Made by a program: the position numbers and the translations under genes. The notes under the pieces are model-generated. The model saw nothing but the letters and a program-made list of their open reading frames with translations. It made no database searches and was not told where the DNA came from. Shown here piece after piece: positions 31,706 through 38,698 of a stretch of 64,000 bases of DNA. Source of the stretch: an uncultured Treponema sp. (GTDB lineage Bacteria; Spirochaetota; Spirochaetia; Treponematales; Treponemataceae). The stretch is from positions 1 to 64,000 of the forward strand of contig CAMVHR010000006.1 of NCBI GenBank assembly GCA_947167345.1, in the 5' to 3' direction. Numbering within the stretch: the stretch's first letter is position 1; each line of letters begins with the position of its first letter.

Positions 31706-33082
31706 CTAAAACAATAATGCCTGTGCAATGCCAAAATATACAAGCAGACTTACGGCATCAACAATTGTTGTAATGAACGGACTTGCCATGACGGCAGGAT
31801 CAAGCCCTAGTTTTTTTGCACACAGAGGAAGCGTACAGCCTATCAGTTTTGCTACTAGTACTGTCAGAACCATTGTCATGCATACAACCATAGCAACAGC
31901 AAGGGTTACATCTGTATTTGAAAGTAAAAGCCTGTCTACAAGCATTATCTTGATGAAACAGGCACCTGCAAGTGCCATGCCGCACAGAAGGGCAGTGCGA
32001 ATTTCCTTCCAGATGACAATGGGAAGATCTACGAAATTTACTTCTTCTAGAGAAAGAGCCCTTATTATGGTGACTGATGACTGAGAACCAGAGTTTCCAC
32101 CAGTGTCCATTAGCATTGGAATGAATGCGGTAAGTACAACCTGCACTGCAAGGGCACTCTCAAAGCCTGTAATTATCATGCCCGTAAAAGTTGCACTGAC
32201 CATCAGAAGAAGAAGCCAGACAATTCTATGTCGGAACAAATCAAATGGTGTAGAACGCAGGTATGTTTTTTCTGAAGGAGCCATACCACCCATGATTTCA
32301 ATGTCTTCAGTAGCTTCATCTTCCATAACTTCAATAGCATCATCAAATGAAATGATGCCGACAATGCGATCTTCTCCGTCTACAACCGGCAGGGCAAAAA
32401 AGTTGTACTTTGAAAGCAGCTTTGACACCTCTTCTTTGTCATCATGAGTGCGTACATATATGATGCCATTGCTCTTCATAAGGTCGTCAATGAGTATTGA
32501 ATCATCCTTTGCAAGCAGCAAGTCCTTTACAGACAGGCGGCCGATAAGCTTTTTGTTTTTAGTAACATAACAAGTATAAAACGACTTGTTGTCTACGCCA
32601 CTGCGGCGAATCATGTTGATTGCCTGCCCTACAGTTGTCCCAAGCCTCAATGCGACATATTCCGTGCTCATGATGGAACCTGCAGAATTTTCTGGATACT
32701 GTAACAACTGGTTCACATCATTGCGCATGTCCGGGCTTATCTGCTTAAGAATGCGTTCAACTACGTTTGCAGGCATTTCATCTACAAGGTCTGCAGCATC
32801 TGCTGCATACAATTCATCGAGGATAGCTTTGAGCTCTGAGTCAGAAAAACCTTTTATGAGCAGTTCCTGAAAATCATTGTCCATTTCGACAAACACGTCA
32901 GCGGCTTTGTCTTTTGGCAGAAGCCGGAACAATACGGGAATCTGCTTTTCATCAACACGTTCAAACAATGCGGCTATGTCACCGGTTGCCATTGTCGAAA
33001 CCATGTCCTTTATTGTTGAATACTTTTTTTCTGTAAGAAACGTGTGTATGAGGCTTTCTATTTTTACTGTAAATTCTGCCAT
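31706..33082 (-). CDS. mgtE: Magnesium transporter MgtE
   Basis: Mg2+ channel of the inner membrane, 458 residues. N-terminal superhelical domain (about 1-130, with LFERVDEKQIPVLFRLLPKDKAADVF), two CBS domains (about 135-255) that sense cytosolic Mg2+, a connecting helix, and five transmembrane helices from about 285, with GGNSGSQSSVTIIRALS as the family signature. There is no Shine-Dalgarno sequence before the ATG, although the mRNA should carry a leader of about 150 nt. The leader is structured and probably regulates expression. Confidence 0.95.
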   Translation of the reverse strand: MAEFTVKIESLIHTFLTEKKYSTIKDMVSTMATGDIAALFERVDEKQIPVLFRLLPKDKAADVFVEMDNDFQELLIKGFSDSELKAILDELYAADAADLVDEMPANVVERILKQISPDMRNDVNQLLQYPENSAGSIMSTEYVALRLGTTVGQAINMIRRSGVDNKSFYTCYVTKNKKLIGRLSVKDLLLAKDDSILIDDLMKSNGIIYVRTHDDKEEVSKLLSKYNFFALPVVDGEDRIVGIISFDDAIEVMEDEATEDIEIMGGMAPSEKTYLRSTPFDLFRHRIVWLLLLMVSATFTGMIITGFESALAVQVVLTAFIPMLMDTGGNSGSQSSVTIIRALSLEEVNFVDLPIVIWKEIRTALLCGMALAGACFIKIMLVDRLLLSNTDVTLAVAMVVCMTMVLTVLVAKLIGCTLPLCAKKLGLDPAVMASPFITTIVDAVSLLVYFGIAQALLF

Positions 33083-33233
33083 TTGATATTTGCAATGAGA
33101 AATAGTTAGCGAGAAGGATTGCTAAAGGGCTGCTATGGTTAGGGCAAGATTGCCGGCAGCACACAGTCTGTTCCCCGGATATGAGCCACTACTACTGCCA
33201 TCTCCCATAGCATCCTCCTGTTTATTGAATTTC
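33083..33233 (-). promoter_or_regulatory. Structured mgtE leader (candidate Mg2+-responsive RNA or uORF region)
   Basis: On the minus strand TGCTATGG (33212-33205) pairs perfectly with CCATAGCA (33138-33131). Just outside it AGGAGGAT (33219-33212) can pair with ATCCTTCT (33119-33112), one G-U. Inside are GGCAG/CTGCC and GGCA/TGCC pairings. Two small ORFs overlap it: 33208-33122 (28 codons, AGGAGG 5 nt upstream) and 33213-33139 (24 codons). The 3-prime strand (CTTGCCCTAACCATAGCAG) recalls the closing stem of the M-box, but the conserved M-box core is not seen. Either a divergent riboswitch or translational control is possible. Confidence 0.55.
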
Positions 33234-33239
33234 GGCTTC

Positions 33240-33268
33240 ATTGTAACACATGTTTTATAGAGCAGCAA
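33240..33268 (-). promoter_or_regulatory. mgtE promoter
   Basis: Minus strand TTGCTG (33268-33263), 17 bp, TACAAT (33245-33240) preceded by TGT, an extended -10. Predicted +1 near 33233. Confidence 0.6.
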
Positions 33269-33390
33269 GTATTTTTGTACCTGTGATATTGGTATTTTTA
33301 TCTCTTTCGCAATGAAAAAACTGATTTATAATTTAAACATGATAAGTAAAGGTACGAATAATCACGTGCCTATTACAGGAGGACATATTT

Positions 33391-34695
33391 ATGAAAAAAC
33401 TTTTACGTTTTGCACTTACAGCAATACTTGCTACAGGACTTGCAGCAAGTTTCATGAGCTGCGGCAAAAAAGAAGCAAAGGCTCCTGCTGCAGATCCTAA
33501 TGCACCTGTAAAACTGACAGTATGGTGCTGGGACCCTTCATTCAACATCTATGCAATGAAAGAAGCTGCAAAAATCTACAACAGGGAGAAACCAAATGTA
33601 ACAATCGACATTGTGGAAACACCTTGGGAAGACCTTCAGCAGAAACTTATTGCATCCCTTTCTGCAAATGACCCTTCAACACTTCCTGACATTATTCTTT
33701 GTCAGGACAACGCAATCCTTAAGAACGTATCAAGCTATCCTAACGCATTTGCTCCACTCAATGGCAAGGTTGACTTGTCACAGTTTGCTCAGTTTAAGGT
33801 TGCATTTGGTGAAGTAAACGGCAAGAACTATTCTGTTCCTTTTGACAACGGCGTTACAGCAACATTCCTTCGTACAGACCTTATTGAACAGGCAGGCCTT
33901 AAGGTAGATGACTTTAAGGACATTACATGGGAACGCTTCCATGAACTTGGAAAAATTGTAAAGCAGAAGACTGGCAAATACATGATTTCTTACGTTGGCA
34001 ATGACCCAGACTTTGTAATGGTTGCCCTTCAGAGTGCAGGAACATGGTTCTTTGACGACAAAGGAAAGGTAAACATTGCAAATAACCAGGCTCTTATTGA
34101 AGGCCTTAAGGTTTATGCAGACATGGTTGCAGACGGAACATGTCTTGCAGTTCCTGATTGGAATGCATTCGTTGCATCTGTAAACAACGGACAGGTTGCT
34201 TCTTGTATTGACGGTAGCTGGATGGTAGGAATTATTTCTTCACAGTCAAACCAGCAGGGTAAATGGGCAATTACAAATACACCACGCCTTTCTGTTTCAG
34301 GTGCAAAAAACAGCTCTAGCCAGGGAGGTTCTTCATGGATGATTATGGCAAATTCAAAGTATCAGGATGTAGCAGCAGACTTCCTTAACAAGACTTTTGC
34401 CGGTAGCAAAGAACTTTATGAGATAATTCTTCCTTCATCAGGTGCAATTTCTACATGGCTCCCTGCAGCAAGCTCACCAGCTTATGAAAAGGGTAACGAG
34501 TTCTTTGGTGGCCAGCAGATTTACAAGGAGTTCCTTGCATATTCCAATGAGATCCCTCGCATCAAATACGGTATCTACAACTATGAAGCTCGTGCTGAAG
34601 TAGGTGTTGCTGTTGCAGATATTCTCAAAGGCTCTAGCGTTGAAGATGCTCTTGCAAAGGCAGAAAAGAACGTAAAGTTCATTATGGGTGAATAA
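33391..34695 (+). CDS. Sugar ABC transporter lipoprotein binding component (CUT1 family)
   Basis: Extracytoplasmic solute-binding protein family 1, 434 residues. Lipobox FMSC with the lipidated Cys at about 25, then an Ala/Pro-rich linker. The mature fold starts KLTVWCWDPSFNIYAMKEAA; PSTLPDIIL, VPFDNGVTATFLRTDL and IDGSWMVG fit the maltose/oligosaccharide-binding fold. The substrate is unknown. AGGAGG lies 9 nt before the ATG. A TATAAT at 33327-33332 may be its -10, with a poor -35. It is followed by a large hairpin and then two permease genes. Confidence 0.9.
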   Translation: MKKLLRFALTAILATGLAASFMSCGKKEAKAPAADPNAPVKLTVWCWDPSFNIYAMKEAAKIYNREKPNVTIDIVETPWEDLQQKLIASLSANDPSTLPDIILCQDNAILKNVSSYPNAFAPLNGKVDLSQFAQFKVAFGEVNGKNYSVPFDNGVTATFLRTDLIEQAGLKVDDFKDITWERFHELGKIVKQKTGKYMISYVGNDPDFVMVALQSAGTWFFDDKGKVNIANNQALIEGLKVYADMVADGTCLAVPDWNAFVASVNNGQVASCIDGSWMVGIISSQSNQQGKWAITNTPRLSVSGAKNSSSQGGSSWMIMANSKYQDVAADFLNKTFAGSKELYEIILPSSGAISTWLPAASSPAYEKGNEFFGGQQIYKEFLAYSNEIPRIKYGIYNYEARAEVGVAVADILKGSSVEDALAKAEKNVKFIMGE

Positions 34696-34707
34696 ACATA
34701 TTAAAAA

Positions 34708-34755
34708 GTGAAGTTTTAAGCCACTAAAGTACAGTGACGTGACTTAAAACTTCAC
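34708..34755 (+). other. Intercistronic hairpin between binding protein and permeases
   Basis: GTGAAGTTTTAAG (34708-34720) pairs perfectly with CTTAAAACTTCAC (34743-34755); a further CAC/GTG closes inside after one mismatch. No T-run follows. Such hairpins after binding-protein genes commonly protect the upstream mRNA so that the binding protein is made in excess. Confidence 0.75.
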
Positions 34756-34789
34756 AGTTCAAAATTAATCTAACATAAAGGACTGTCTA

Positions 34790-35674
34790 ATGGCAAAAAA
34801 AATATCACTGGAATCGAAATACAGCAGGGCCGGCTGGTGCTTTGTAATGCCTGCTGCGGTTCTTATTTTCTTATTGAATTTTTTCCCGATGATTCGGGCA
34901 TTCGTTCTTTCTCTTCAGTCAGGTGTTGCTAATAACCTGCATTTTACCGGATTAAGAAACTATATACGCCTCTTACAGGATGAACGGTTCCTTTATTCTG
35001 TGCGCAATGTATTCATTTACTTGATTTTTCAAGTTCCGATAATGCTTTTCCTTGCAATAGTGCTTGCGAGCATTCTTAACGACAACCGCCTTAAGTTCAA
35101 AGGGGTTTTCAGAACAATTATATTTCTGCCTTGTGCAACGGCACTTGTTTCTTCTGCCCTCATATTCAAGTCAATATTCGGCATGGATGGAATCATAAAC
35201 CACTGGTTCATTTATTTAGGCATTCTTAATGAACCTAAAAACTGGCTTACAGACCCAGTATGGGCAAAGATAATCATTATTATTTGTATAACATGGAGAT
35301 GGACAGGGTACAATACTGTATTCTTTCTTGCAGGTCTCCAGAACATAGATCCAAGCATTTATGAAGCTTCTAAGATTGACGGAGCCTCAACAATGCAGCA
35401 GTTCTTTAAATTGACGTTGCCTTTGCTGCGTCCTGTAGTTCTTCTTACGTCAATTATGTCTATAAACGGAACTCTACAGCTCTTTGATGAAGTAAGAAAC
35501 CTTACAGGAGGCGGTCCTGGAAACGAGACAATTACAATCTCTCAGTACATATATAACCTTTCGTTTATAAACAATCCTCAGTTTGGTTATGCGGCTGCAA
35601 TATCATATACAATCCTTATTATGGTTGCATTGCTTTCATTCATACAGCTCAGAATAGGAGATAAAAATGATTAA
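34790..35674 (+). CDS. Sugar ABC transporter permease, MalF/UgpA type
   Basis: Inner-membrane permease of 294 residues with six predicted helices. The EAA loop that contacts the ATPase reads YEASKIDGASTMQQFFKLTLPLLRP (about 191-215), a typical CUT1 sequence. AAAGGA precedes the ATG. The stop overlaps the next permease by 8 nt. Together with the upstream lipoprotein and the next gene it forms a carbohydrate importer; no ATPase gene is nearby, so a shared MsmK-like ATPase elsewhere is likely. Confidence 0.93.
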   Translation: MAKKISLESKYSRAGWCFVMPAAVLIFLLNFFPMIRAFVLSLQSGVANNLHFTGLRNYIRLLQDERFLYSVRNVFIYLIFQVPIMLFLAIVLASILNDNRLKFKGVFRTIIFLPCATALVSSALIFKSIFGMDGIINHWFIYLGILNEPKNWLTDPVWAKIIIIICITWRWTGYNTVFFLAGLQNIDPSIYEASKIDGASTMQQFFKLTLPLLRPVVLLTSIMSINGTLQLFDEVRNLTGGGPGNETITISQYIYNLSFINNPQFGYAAAISYTILIMVALLSFIQLRIGDKND

Positions 35675-36491
35675 AAAAGAAAGGTCACTAAACAGCTGTC
35701 CGGCTTATGAATACGCATTCATAATTGCAATATGTGTGTTTTCAATCTTTCCGTTTTACTTTATGCTTGTTTCTGCAACAAACAAAAGTACGGATGTAAT
35801 TGCAGGAAGAATGGTTCCTGGGGGCTATTTGTTCCAGAACATAAAGAACATGATTCAGACTGTAGCCATTGGCAGGGGGCTTTGGAATTCCTTACGCACT
35901 ACCGTAATTCAGACCGTACTCAGCATATTTGTCTGTTCTCTTGCAGGATATGGTTTTCAGGTATACCGAGACAAGCATAAGGATTTGCTCATGAAAATCC
36001 TGTTGCTTTCAATGATGATTCCTTTTGCATCGATTATGGTTCCGCTGTTCAAGATGTTCAGTTCTGCGCATCTGTTGAATACGACTTTGGGATTTGTATT
36101 GCCGTCAATATCTACTGCATTCCTGATTTTCTTTTTCAGGCAAAATTCTCAGGCTTTCCCTATAGAAACCATACAGGCAGCCCGCGTTGATGGACTTAAT
36201 GAGTTCCAGATTTATCTGCAGGTGTATTTTCCTATAATGTCTCCTACATTTGCGGCGGCAGCAATTGTTACATTCATGAACGGCTGGAACAACTACATGT
36301 GGCCTCTTATTGTAATGCAGTCACAAAGCATGAGGACAATGCCTCTTGTCGTAACAGGACTTACAGCGGGCTACGTCACAGATTATGGACTTTTGATGTT
36401 ATGCGTATCCATAATGACGTTGCCTACGATCATATTGTTCTTTACACAGCAGAAACGCTTCGTTGAAGGTGTTACTGGCTCTGTAAAATAA
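35667..36491 (+). CDS. Sugar ABC transporter permease, MalG/UgpE type
   Basis: Partner permease of 274 residues, six helices. EAA loop IQAARVDGLNEFQIYLQVYFPIMSP (about 170-194). MIPFASIMVPLF and the C-terminal QKRFVEGVTGSVK ending are typical of CUT1 MalG-like proteins. Its ATG lies inside the previous gene, so the two subunits are translationally coupled. A terminator follows 36 nt after the stop. Confidence 0.93.
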   Translation: MIKKERSLNSCPAYEYAFIIAICVFSIFPFYFMLVSATNKSTDVIAGRMVPGGYLFQNIKNMIQTVAIGRGLWNSLRTTVIQTVLSIFVCSLAGYGFQVYRDKHKDLLMKILLLSMMIPFASIMVPLFKMFSSAHLLNTTLGFVLPSISTAFLIFFFRQNSQAFPIETIQAARVDGLNEFQIYLQVYFPIMSPTFAAAAIVTFMNGWNNYMWPLIVMQSQSMRTMPLVVTGLTAGYVTDYGLLMLCVSIMTLPTIILFFTQQKRFVEGVTGSVK

Positions 36492-36589: not shown

Positions 36590-36595
36590 TTGATT

Positions 36596-38698
36596 ATGGC
36601 TGTAACAAACGAATATACTATGTCTGAGCATCTTCGTCCTGTAATCAACGTGGATTCGACAAAATGCTGCAATTGCCACAGGTGCATAAGCGTATGCCCT
36701 GTAAAGATGTGTAATAACGGTTCTGGTAACTATGTTTCCGTCAATCATGATCTTTGCATTGGATGTGGAACATGTCTAGATGCATGTGTTCATGGTGCAA
36801 GAACTGGTATTGACGATATGGAACAGTTTTTTCAGGATTTAAAAAAAGGAACCCCTATTGTTGCTATAGTAGCTCCTGCCGTCGTCGTAAACTTTAAGGG
36901 CAAAGATTTGGAGCTTAACGGATACCTTAAGTCTATAGGCGTAAAGGCTGTATTTGACGTTTCGTTCGGCGCAGAGCTTACAACCAAAAGCTATGTAGAA
37001 CAGATAAAAAATGAAAATCCGCTGGTAATGGTGTCTCAACCATGTCCGGCTCTTGTAACATTCATCGAGACTTACCGCCCTCAACTGATAAAATACCTTG
37101 CAAAACCCGACAGTCCTATGGCTCATACAGCGGAATGCATAAGGCATTTTTATCCAGAATACAGCAATTGCAAGATAGCCGCAATATCTCCTTGTTTTGC
37201 AAAAAGGCGAGAATTTGATGAAAATGGACGTGTTGACTATAACGTTACCATGAAAAATCTTGACATTTATTTTAATGAACATGGCATTAAACTGTCGGAT
37301 TATCCTAAAACTGAATATGACAATCCACCTGCAGAAAGGGCAGTCCTTTATTCAACTCCAGGAGGTCTGATGCGTACTGCCGAGCGCTTTGTTCCCGGCA
37401 TATCTGCCCAGACAAGAAAAATTGAAGGACAGCCTGCTGTATTTGAATACTTGTCAGGACTTGACAAGTCTCTTTCTTCTGGAGTCAAGCCATACTATAA
37501 GCTTGTTGACTGCCTTAACTGTGAAAAAGGTTGCAACAGGGGAGGCGGAACGACAAACAATAATATGCCTCTTGATGAGCTTGAATCTTTCGTTGAAAGC
37601 AGGGCTAATGAACGGCGCAGAATATGGAATACTCAGTCTAATGTTGCAAAAAGCTCCGCATTCAAAAAACTAGACAAAACAGTTTCCGATTACTGGAAGC
37701 CAGGCATATATGAGCGTAAATACAAAGACAGAAGTGCCATACAGAAAAACTTCATAAAAAGACCTTCAAGCGAACAGCTGCAGGAAATCTTTAACAACAT
37801 GGAAAAGCGTACCAAGGCAGATTTGTATAACTGTGGTGCATGCGGCTATAACAGTTGTGAGCAGATGGCTGTTGCAATTTTTAATGGATTAAACCGAAAG
37901 GAAAACTGCCATCATTATGTGCTTTACCTTGTAAATAAGGAACATGATCAGAAAATTTCAGAGACTGTCAGCAGCATAACAAAGGAAAGCATAAAGCTTC
38001 TTGAAGGAACAAAGAGCAATGTGGAAAGCCTTACAAAAGTCACGGAAACAATGACTCAAAATGTAGCAGCGTCTTCTTCTGCCATAGAAGATATGGTAAG
38101 TAACATTTCTACAATAAACAATATTGTTGATACGAATTTCAAGATTGTCAATGAACTGGAAGATGCTACTCAGACAGGCCGCACAAAACTTACAGAAGTT
38201 GACAAGCTTGTAGGAGACATCGAAAAAGAATCATCAGCACTCATGAAGATGAGTAGTTCCATTCAGAAAATTGCAAGCCAGACTAACATGCTTGCAATGA
38301 ATGCTGCAATCGAAGCTGCTCATGCAGGTGAATTCGGTGCAGGATTCTCTGTTGTTGCGGATGAAATACGAAAGCTTGCAGAAGATTCCGGTAGAGAAGC
38401 CAAACAGATTGGCGAAGTCCTTAAGAAAATAAAAGGCATGGTTGACGGTGCCTATGACAAGTCAAATGAAGTTAGCAGTGAGTTTGAGAATGTTGTTTCC
38501 CTAATGGAAAACGTAAAGACTCATGAAATGGAAGTAAAGACTTCCATGCAGAAGCAGAATGCGGGAAATGAACAGCTTCTGAATACTCTTGCACAGATGA
38601 AAGAAGGTGCAAGAGTCGTTGAAGCCGCAGCGTCTCATCTTAGTGCAGACACAAAGAACATCATAGAGGCTGTGCGAGATATAGGAAAGCAAAAGTAA
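36596..38698 (+). CDS. [FeFe]-hydrogenase-like domain fused to a methyl-accepting chemotaxis signalling domain
   Basis: Soluble sensor of 700 residues. Positions below count from TTG 36590, two residues earlier. Residues 26-66 hold two ferredoxin motifs ([23 protein letters not shown]). Residues 90-320 match the catalytic large-subunit domain. The H-cluster cysteines are present as C152 (SQPCP), C202 (SPCFAK), C311 and C315 ([11 protein letters not shown]), although surrounding motifs differ from TSCCPxW and MPCxxKxxE of catalytic enzymes. Residues 413-440 form another Fe-S motif (CGACGYNSC, then C440). The rest is a long coiled coil with the MCP tip [19 protein letters not shown] (563-581). 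There is no transmembrane helix. It probably reports H2 or redox state to CheA. Divergent motifs argue for sensing, not bulk catalysis. Confidence 0.88.

Follow-up and report, generated by a model that had tools for sequence, protein, structure and literature searches.

As far as we found, descriptions of Mg2+ sensing by way of ribosome stability during translation are limited to the enterobacterial mgtA and mgtB leaders. In the mgtA leader of E. coli and Salmonella, ribosomes drop off the leader peptide mgtL at an EPDP sequence when Mg2+ is low, which releases mgtA, the output being Rho-dependent transcription termination (PMC11282234). Salmonella mgtQ is a uORF of 8 codons in the mgtC-mgtB intergenic region within the operon, before the P-type ATPase gene mgtB; its residues Asp2 and Glu5 reduce translation of the uORF and release the mgtB start (PMC8092293). 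Leaders of Mg2+ transporter genes also include the M-box (ykoK, RF00380), which in mycobacteria likewise involves uORFs and masking of an SD (PMC12810186). Upstream of mgtE itself, the "mgtE motif" of Thioalkalivibrio has been presented as a candidate cis-regulatory RNA with a stem that includes the SD and start of the gene (PMC11109978).

We analyzed the leader of an mgtE gene in a 64,000-nucleotide stretch of DNA from an uncultured Treponema sp. (the window). As in mgtL and mgtQ, a short SD-bearing ORF with a coding signature and predicted translation lies upstream of a Mg2+ transporter gene, and mutually exclusive structures linking this uORF to the output were found in relatives and, weakly, in the window. 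In the ermBL and ermCL translational attenuators, too, the start of the downstream gene is masked by one or other of two hairpins depending on translation of a leader ORF, but there the stall is induced by a drug, the controlled gene is not for an ion transporter, and a self-masking SD is not known as the conserved feature.

The likeness to mgtQ extends to acidic residues early in the uORF and to stems that exclude each other, the transporter gene's start being masked by one of them, and would also take in ribosome destabilization and translational control; a further difference may lie in the helix between the SD and the end of the uORF, of which the available part of PMC8092293 gives no description for mgtQ. 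With mgtL the leader would share the sensing of low Mg2+ by a leader peptide, through early acidic or proline residues and drop-off, and a switch in RNA conformation, while the output, the transporter, the peptide and the RNA of mgtL are different (PMC11282234). We detected no homology to either system: there was no Rfam match, the peptides differ by eye, and the transporter belongs to another family. The M-box aptamer is absent and the uORF itself is the conserved candidate sensor, whereas the mycobacterial form depends on the M-box (PMC12810186). The 32 examples of the mgtE motif come from one proteobacterial genus and are riboswitch candidates rather than uORFs; they are set apart by their description (PMC11109978). 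No earlier account of such an element turned up in open full texts; preprints, subscription journals and supplements lay outside this scope, and an earlier mention is possible there.

The upstream ORF and its distribution

The features of the locus are listed in Table 1. The original prediction derived a leader of about 150 nt from an extended -10 promoter, and the hexamer of this promoter was located, with a poor -35; the promoter was absent from the list produced by a consensus scan, which requires a better -35. The predicted 28-codon ORF was also found, with its strong SD, AGGAGG, at 33219-33214 on the minus strand, and mgtE indeed has no SD at its own start in the window. An ABC uptake operon (33391-36491, plus strand) is transcribed divergently from mgtE across a short intergenic region common to both; it encodes a solute-binding protein (PF13416/PF01547) and, by eye, two permease-like ORFs. 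Beyond it (36590-38698, plus strand) lies a gene for a 702-aa protein in which Fe-S domains and a methyl-accepting (MCP) signaling domain are combined with the C-terminal domain of an iron-only hydrogenase large subunit, and which looks like a hydrogenase-derived sensor for chemotaxis-type signaling.

Table 1. Features of the mgtE locus in the window
Feature	Positions	Strand	Basis or remark
mgtE, Mg2+ transporter/channel	31706..33082	-	Domains MgtE_N (PF03448), CBS (PF00571) and MgtE (PF01769) by Pfam
Weak -35-like hexamer TTGCTG	33263..33268	-	Sequence; 17-nt spacer to the -10
Extended -10 TGTTACAAT, hexamer TACAAT, leader promoter	33240..33245	-	Sequence
uORF, 28 codons, MGDGSSSGSYPGNRLCAAGNLALTIAAL	33122..33208	-	Stop TAG at 33124-33122; coding signature from comparison
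uORF codons 1-13, MGDGSSSGSYPGN, conserved N-terminal part under peptide-level selection	33170..33208	-	Comparison
P1 5' arm AGGAGGATGCTATGG, uORF SD and start codon	33205..33219	-	Pairing energies, ensemble, comparative P1
P1 3' arm, inner half CCATAGCA, within the uORF end	33131..33138	-	Pairs with TGCTATGG, 33212-33205
P1 3' arm, outer half ATCCTTCT, directly after the uORF stop	33112..33119	-	Pairs with AGGAGGAT, 33219-33212
Candidate P2 5' arm GGCAGTAG, codons 4-6	33192..33199	-	-12.1 kcal/mol with GTGCTGCC; weak, not canonical P2
Candidate switching segment GTGCTGCCGGCAAT	33149..33162	-	Can pair with GGCAGTAG (P2w) or the mgtE start (P3w)
mgtE start region ATTGCAAATATCAAATGGCAG, candidate P3w partner	33076..33096	-	Exposed in the ribosome-free fold

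The window genome belongs to a treponeme genus, and the close relatives that carry a name are Treponema sp. of rumen and gut origin; the genomes compared were mostly metagenome assembled. Of the 42 mgtE genes with at least 70% identity in the window's genus and in two sister genera, 36 follow the uORF, in the form M[GP]DGSSSGSYP[GA]N...; it is missing in G167, G155, G199, G183, G160 and G007. A pattern of the SD and first codons, run against 200 genomes, gave matches in 14 treponeme genomes, all 14 of them ahead of mgtE and none elsewhere. The nearest mgtE genes outside the treponemes are clostridial (64 to 70% identity). Among the 80 closest mgtE loci in named genomes, which are largely clostridial, at least 72 have an equivalent uORF, M-D-[AG]-G-S-S-[ST]-G-...-G-R-S. 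Within 30 clostridial genomes this motif occurred at most once per genome, and 20 of 21 matches precede mgtE, the 21st lying at a contig end. In both groups the uORF has a strong SD and about 21 to 36 codons and precedes mgtE. The mgtE genes of the T. pallidum-like and T. denticola-like genera are more distant (about 45 to 50% identity), with short leaders in which no uORF was seen, and in other spirochaete families, more distant mgtE genes are preceded by uORFs that open differently and are rich in D/P (MDDPDGSTDYH, DTDSDPYGSK, DNPDSDPYSSK, MSDSDGGGSIP, MDTDPLSS). Since the nearest mgtE outside the treponemes is clostridial and has an equivalent uORF, the gene and its leader have probably moved together between phyla. 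The mgtE of the window's kind is patchy within the genus (45 of 196 genomes), and this patchiness together with the clostridial nearest relatives points to horizontal transfer in gut and rumen.

Several variants of the arrangement were observed. The clostridial match at a contig end (G584:C35:62-97, L207) is a second, truncated copy with no mgtE in view and may belong to another mgtE or another gene. In one genome (G062, L083), the uORF, MSDGNRSSNMDYPPPR..., extends beyond the mgtE start, and the two ORFs overlap. A second, distant mgtE paralogue (23 to 24% identity) in G056:C35 (L092) and G079 (L093) has a uORF of its own, MSNPGGDASMLDVPLCG..., again with complementarity between the SD and its own tail (AAGGAGGTAG/CTGCTTCCTT).

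The beginning of the uORF is conserved in a frame-specific manner. Amino acid identity over treponeme codons 2 to 11 was 0.63 in the true frame versus 0.48 and 0.51 in the other frames, and over clostridial codons 2 to 8 it was 0.58 versus 0.44 and 0.39. Between 39 and 40% of the differences among the N-terminal codons fell at codon position 3, and indels in the first half were whole codons. The tail displayed neither frame-specific identity nor a codon-position-3 signal. Thus, it is the peptide that is conserved at the start of the uORF and the RNA (P1) that is conserved in its tail, and the possibility that the N-terminal part is a pseudo-uORF functioning as RNA only was ruled out by the frame-specific conservation. 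Of 92 uORFs, 89 (31 of 33 treponeme and 58 of 59 clostridial) have an acidic second or third residue, and the rest of the first 13 or so codons encodes mostly small polar residues. The 12 residues of the N-terminus in the window, MGDGSSSGSYPG, include a single acid and a single proline and no dense EPDP-like acidic/proline run. The Arg codon of G-R-S (codon ~14 in the clostridial alignment) is CGA in 58 of 59 leaders and is also CGA in Lachnospiraceae uORFs with otherwise different peptides, which may indicate a slow codon or an RNA constraint.

Alternative pairings in the leader

The SD of the uORF pairs with the 3' end of the same uORF (helix P1), so that good ribosome loading is expected only while P1 is open. 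When the SD arm was compared with the uORF end against dinucleotide-preserving shuffles, the mean z was -2.0 in treponemes, where 27 to 29 of about 40 leaders lay beyond -1.6, and in Clostridia it was -3.0, where 45 to 48 of 59 did; because the leaders are related sequences, these mean z values and Fisher's p overstate independence, and the significance is generous. Six control pairings, in which the mgtE SD was set against its own codons or the uORF SD against mgtE codons or upstream DNA, gave mean z values of 0.27, 0.15, -0.18, 0.02, -0.60 and 0.08. These values near 0 ruled out the artefact that an SD pairs with anything CU rich. Along the rest of the leader the signal was flat, apart from P2 (described below) and a local hairpin.

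Covariation among homologous leaders, on which the original prediction was made to depend, was looked for and found. The P1 partner follows changes in the SD, as in GGAAACC/GGTTTCC, GGGAACG/CGTTCCC, AAAGGAGAA/TTCTCCTTT, AGGAGGAAGCTT/AAGCTTTCTCCT and the AAGGAGGTAG/CTGCTTCCTT pair, and P1 is also present in several diverged leaders (L222, L224, L230, L218, L091 and L092). For P1 and P2 together, 93.8% of the cells in 28 aligned clostridial leaders were paired, compared with 34 to 49% when the arms were slid, and 20 cells had changed on both sides (0 of 500 shuffles).

Both adjoining helices that had been predicted for the window are present there: the outer (AGGAGGAT/ATCCTTCT) and the inner (TGCTATGG/CCATAGCA) jointly contribute -17.4 kcal/mol. 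The fold of this single sequence did not exceed chance, however (z of -0.59, with 52 of 200 shuffles equally good), and P1 alone gave a p value of 0.048 against shuffles; P1 stands far above chance because of the comparison across dozens of relatives, where the helix recurs with changed sequences, and not because of the window sequence alone. In the thermodynamic ensemble of the window leader, the uORF SD was nearly all paired (unpaired probability of about 0 to 0.15), in agreement with the prediction that the outer helix masks AGGAGG, and the ATG of mgtE was ~98% unpaired. The closest sibling locus, L032, retains the inner half of P1 with CCGTAGCA in place of CCATAGCA, the pair being preserved as G-U.

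In most relatives, the stretch between the uORF and mgtE can pair either with uORF codons 4 to 14 (P2) or with the mgtE start (P3). The clostridial element, TCTGC-GTGTCGG-GCTTCC, has GGAAG...CCGGCAC...GCAGGCC as its uORF partner and GGAGG...CCGATGGCAGA as its mgtE partner. P2 and P3 share one arm and, as pairings predicted from the relatives and only weakly from the window, exclude each other; P1 and P2 cross and would therefore form a pseudoknot if both were present at once. Pairing of mgtE positions -6 to +9 with the intergenic region was enriched: clostridial leaders gave a mean z of -1.47 (23 of 59) and treponeme leaders one of -0.97 (13 of 39). P3 was 93% paired within Clostridia with no covariation, since the SD there is invariant. 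Parallel P3 pairings were found elsewhere, GCCTCTTACGGCCTTCTGTTT/AAACAGGAGCGCGTTATGGC in L052 and GCCATA/TATGGC in L059. The overlap of the P2 and P3 arms was uninformative as a separate statistic, as random placement gives an overlap of 0.67 to 0.75. U-tracts following the P2 3' arm in L100, L040, L099 and L075 suggested an intrinsic terminator. This candidate was rejected because the Us pair with the purine-rich mgtE start (P3) and because the loop would span 60 to 100 nt; a terminator scan of the window leader found none.

Models of mgtE control

Comparison across related loci shows both the coding and the structure of the leader, and uORF-coupled control, one of the options in the original prediction, has gained strong support: the uORF is conserved, coding and specific to mgtE, and a covarying helix covers its SD. 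We lean toward a leader that acts as a uORF switch, coupling mgtE expression to the progress of ribosomes on the uORF. From gene linkage and analogy, we infer Mg2+ as the signal and ribosome drop-off as the event. With ample Mg2+, the uORF would be read to its end, P1 and P2 would be held open, and the freed intergenic element would mask the mgtE start (P3), turning mgtE off. With scarce Mg2+, ribosomes would drop off at the small and acidic N-terminus of the uORF, after which P1 would close and block the loading of new ribosomes, and P2 would form and release the mgtE start, turning mgtE on. The sign of this model fits, since the ribosome-free fold in the window leaves mgtE open.

A metal-binding aptamer, either a divergent M-box or another, could instead control mgtE without translation of the uORF, as might be expected of a structured leader upstream of a Mg2+ transporter gene with a possible P1/P2 pseudoknot. 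A cmscan with all 4,227 Rfam families found no match in the window, including RF00380 at its gathering score; RF00380 also had no match at an E value of ≤10 in the region 32900-33600, which gave chance matches only. The M-box was found in 0 of 98 genomes of the window's genus, whereas B. subtilis and L. lactis, used as controls, did match. Nothing matched in an Rfam scan of eight related treponemal and clostridial loci, and the Mg_sensor/mgtA leader (RF01056) was absent from them and from the window. These scans and the congeners ruled out the M-box or any other Rfam family as the identity of the leader. Thus, the earlier statement that the leader is not a recognizable canonical M-box was borne out by the RF00380 search; the likeness of the 3' strand to the M-box closing region found no support, nor did a divergent M-box. 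Moreover, the ORF is kept with a coding signature, and the sign would be wrong, as Mg2+ would promote the P1/P2 pseudoknot and thereby switch mgtE on. We consider control by an aptamer very unlikely, and a new Mg2+-binding aptamer is not needed for the mgtE leader.

Arrest of the ribosome by the uORF peptide is an unlikely alternative to drop-off. A stall in the conserved stretch, with YPG (treponemes) or the CGA codon (Clostridia) as possible sites, would respond to Mg2+ or another cue and block P2 or P1; the coding selection on the N-terminus, the invariance of the CGA codon (58 of 59) and the existence of the alternative helices P2 and P3 agree with it. Between clades, however, the peptides are too dissimilar for one specific arrest motif, and we prefer drop-off because a stall on codons 8 to 14 would block P2 and favor P3, with mgtE off, the opposite sign to that expected under Mg2+ starvation. 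An attenuator of the his/ilv type, sensing charged tRNA through runs of Ser/Gly codons or CGA, appears decidedly improbable: AGT AGT AGY codons occur in treponemes and CGA in Clostridia, but the runs of Ser are not maintained, with G, N, T and D taking its place, other clades carry D/P instead, and no amino acid is linked to mgtE. Small proteins act on transporters in other bacteria, as MgtS does on MgtA, and the conserved N-terminus would suit a uORF peptide acting in trans on MgtE; the peptide is hydrophilic, with about 28 residues, a tail without peptide selection and an SD masked by P1, and we give this explanation hardly any weight.

The window itself may be a simplified or partly decayed member of the class. 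Its uORF ends 39 nt from mgtE, compared with 82 nt in L032 (MgtE 95% identical), which retains a switching arm, GTCTGGATACA, able to pair with GTATCCGG (P2) or TGTACATACCAGA (P3). This canonical arm is lost from the shortened stretch, and the output stage of the window is therefore uncertain. A replacement switch segment at 33162-33149 is possible; between L032 and the window it differs by one compensatory change (ACAAT/ATTGT for GCAAT/ATTGC), and P3w alone did not exceed chance in the window (p of 0.32). The shortened stretch and this p value would also fit a relic, in which mgtE, having lost its SD and the P2/P3 arm, has become constitutive, leaving nothing of the switch but the uORF and P1. 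Against such a relic, which we think rather unlikely, the window still has an intact uORF and an intact P1 in both halves, and a subclade with short intergenic stretches (L033 to L043 and L096) mostly retains a strong P1; output may therefore work differently there. Under the preferred uORF switch, ribosome-free RNA of the window would still have the uORF closed and mgtE open, possibly alongside the replacement segment. Immediately upstream of mgtE, TTTCTCAT is conserved in the window (about 33104-33094) and in L032 to L043, L059, L094 and L096; mgtE genes of the subclade with TTTCTCAT mostly have no SD, and TTTCTCAT is a possible element for SD-independent initiation.

Implications for magnesium uptake

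We tentatively put forward the leader as an undescribed class of self-licensing leader-peptide switch, common to mgtE genes of Clostridia and spirochaetes, in which Mg2+-dependent drop-off would latch the uORF shut and mgtE on. Such a switch would carry translation-based sensing of Mg2+ beyond the enterobacteria and would stand in for the M-box. The class would add a sizeable cis-regulatory family that is absent from Rfam and, if the proposal is true, a new circuit element: the ribosome site of the uORF would be masked by its own 3' end, with each finishing ribosome keeping access for the next. Members of two other phyla, without an M-box at mgtE, would then use the ribosome as a magnesium sensor, and ribosome-based sensing would serve a different transporter family, MgtE. 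The recurrence of the leader in gut treponemes and clostridia, two unrelated groups, suggests an undescribed translation-based control of magnesium uptake.
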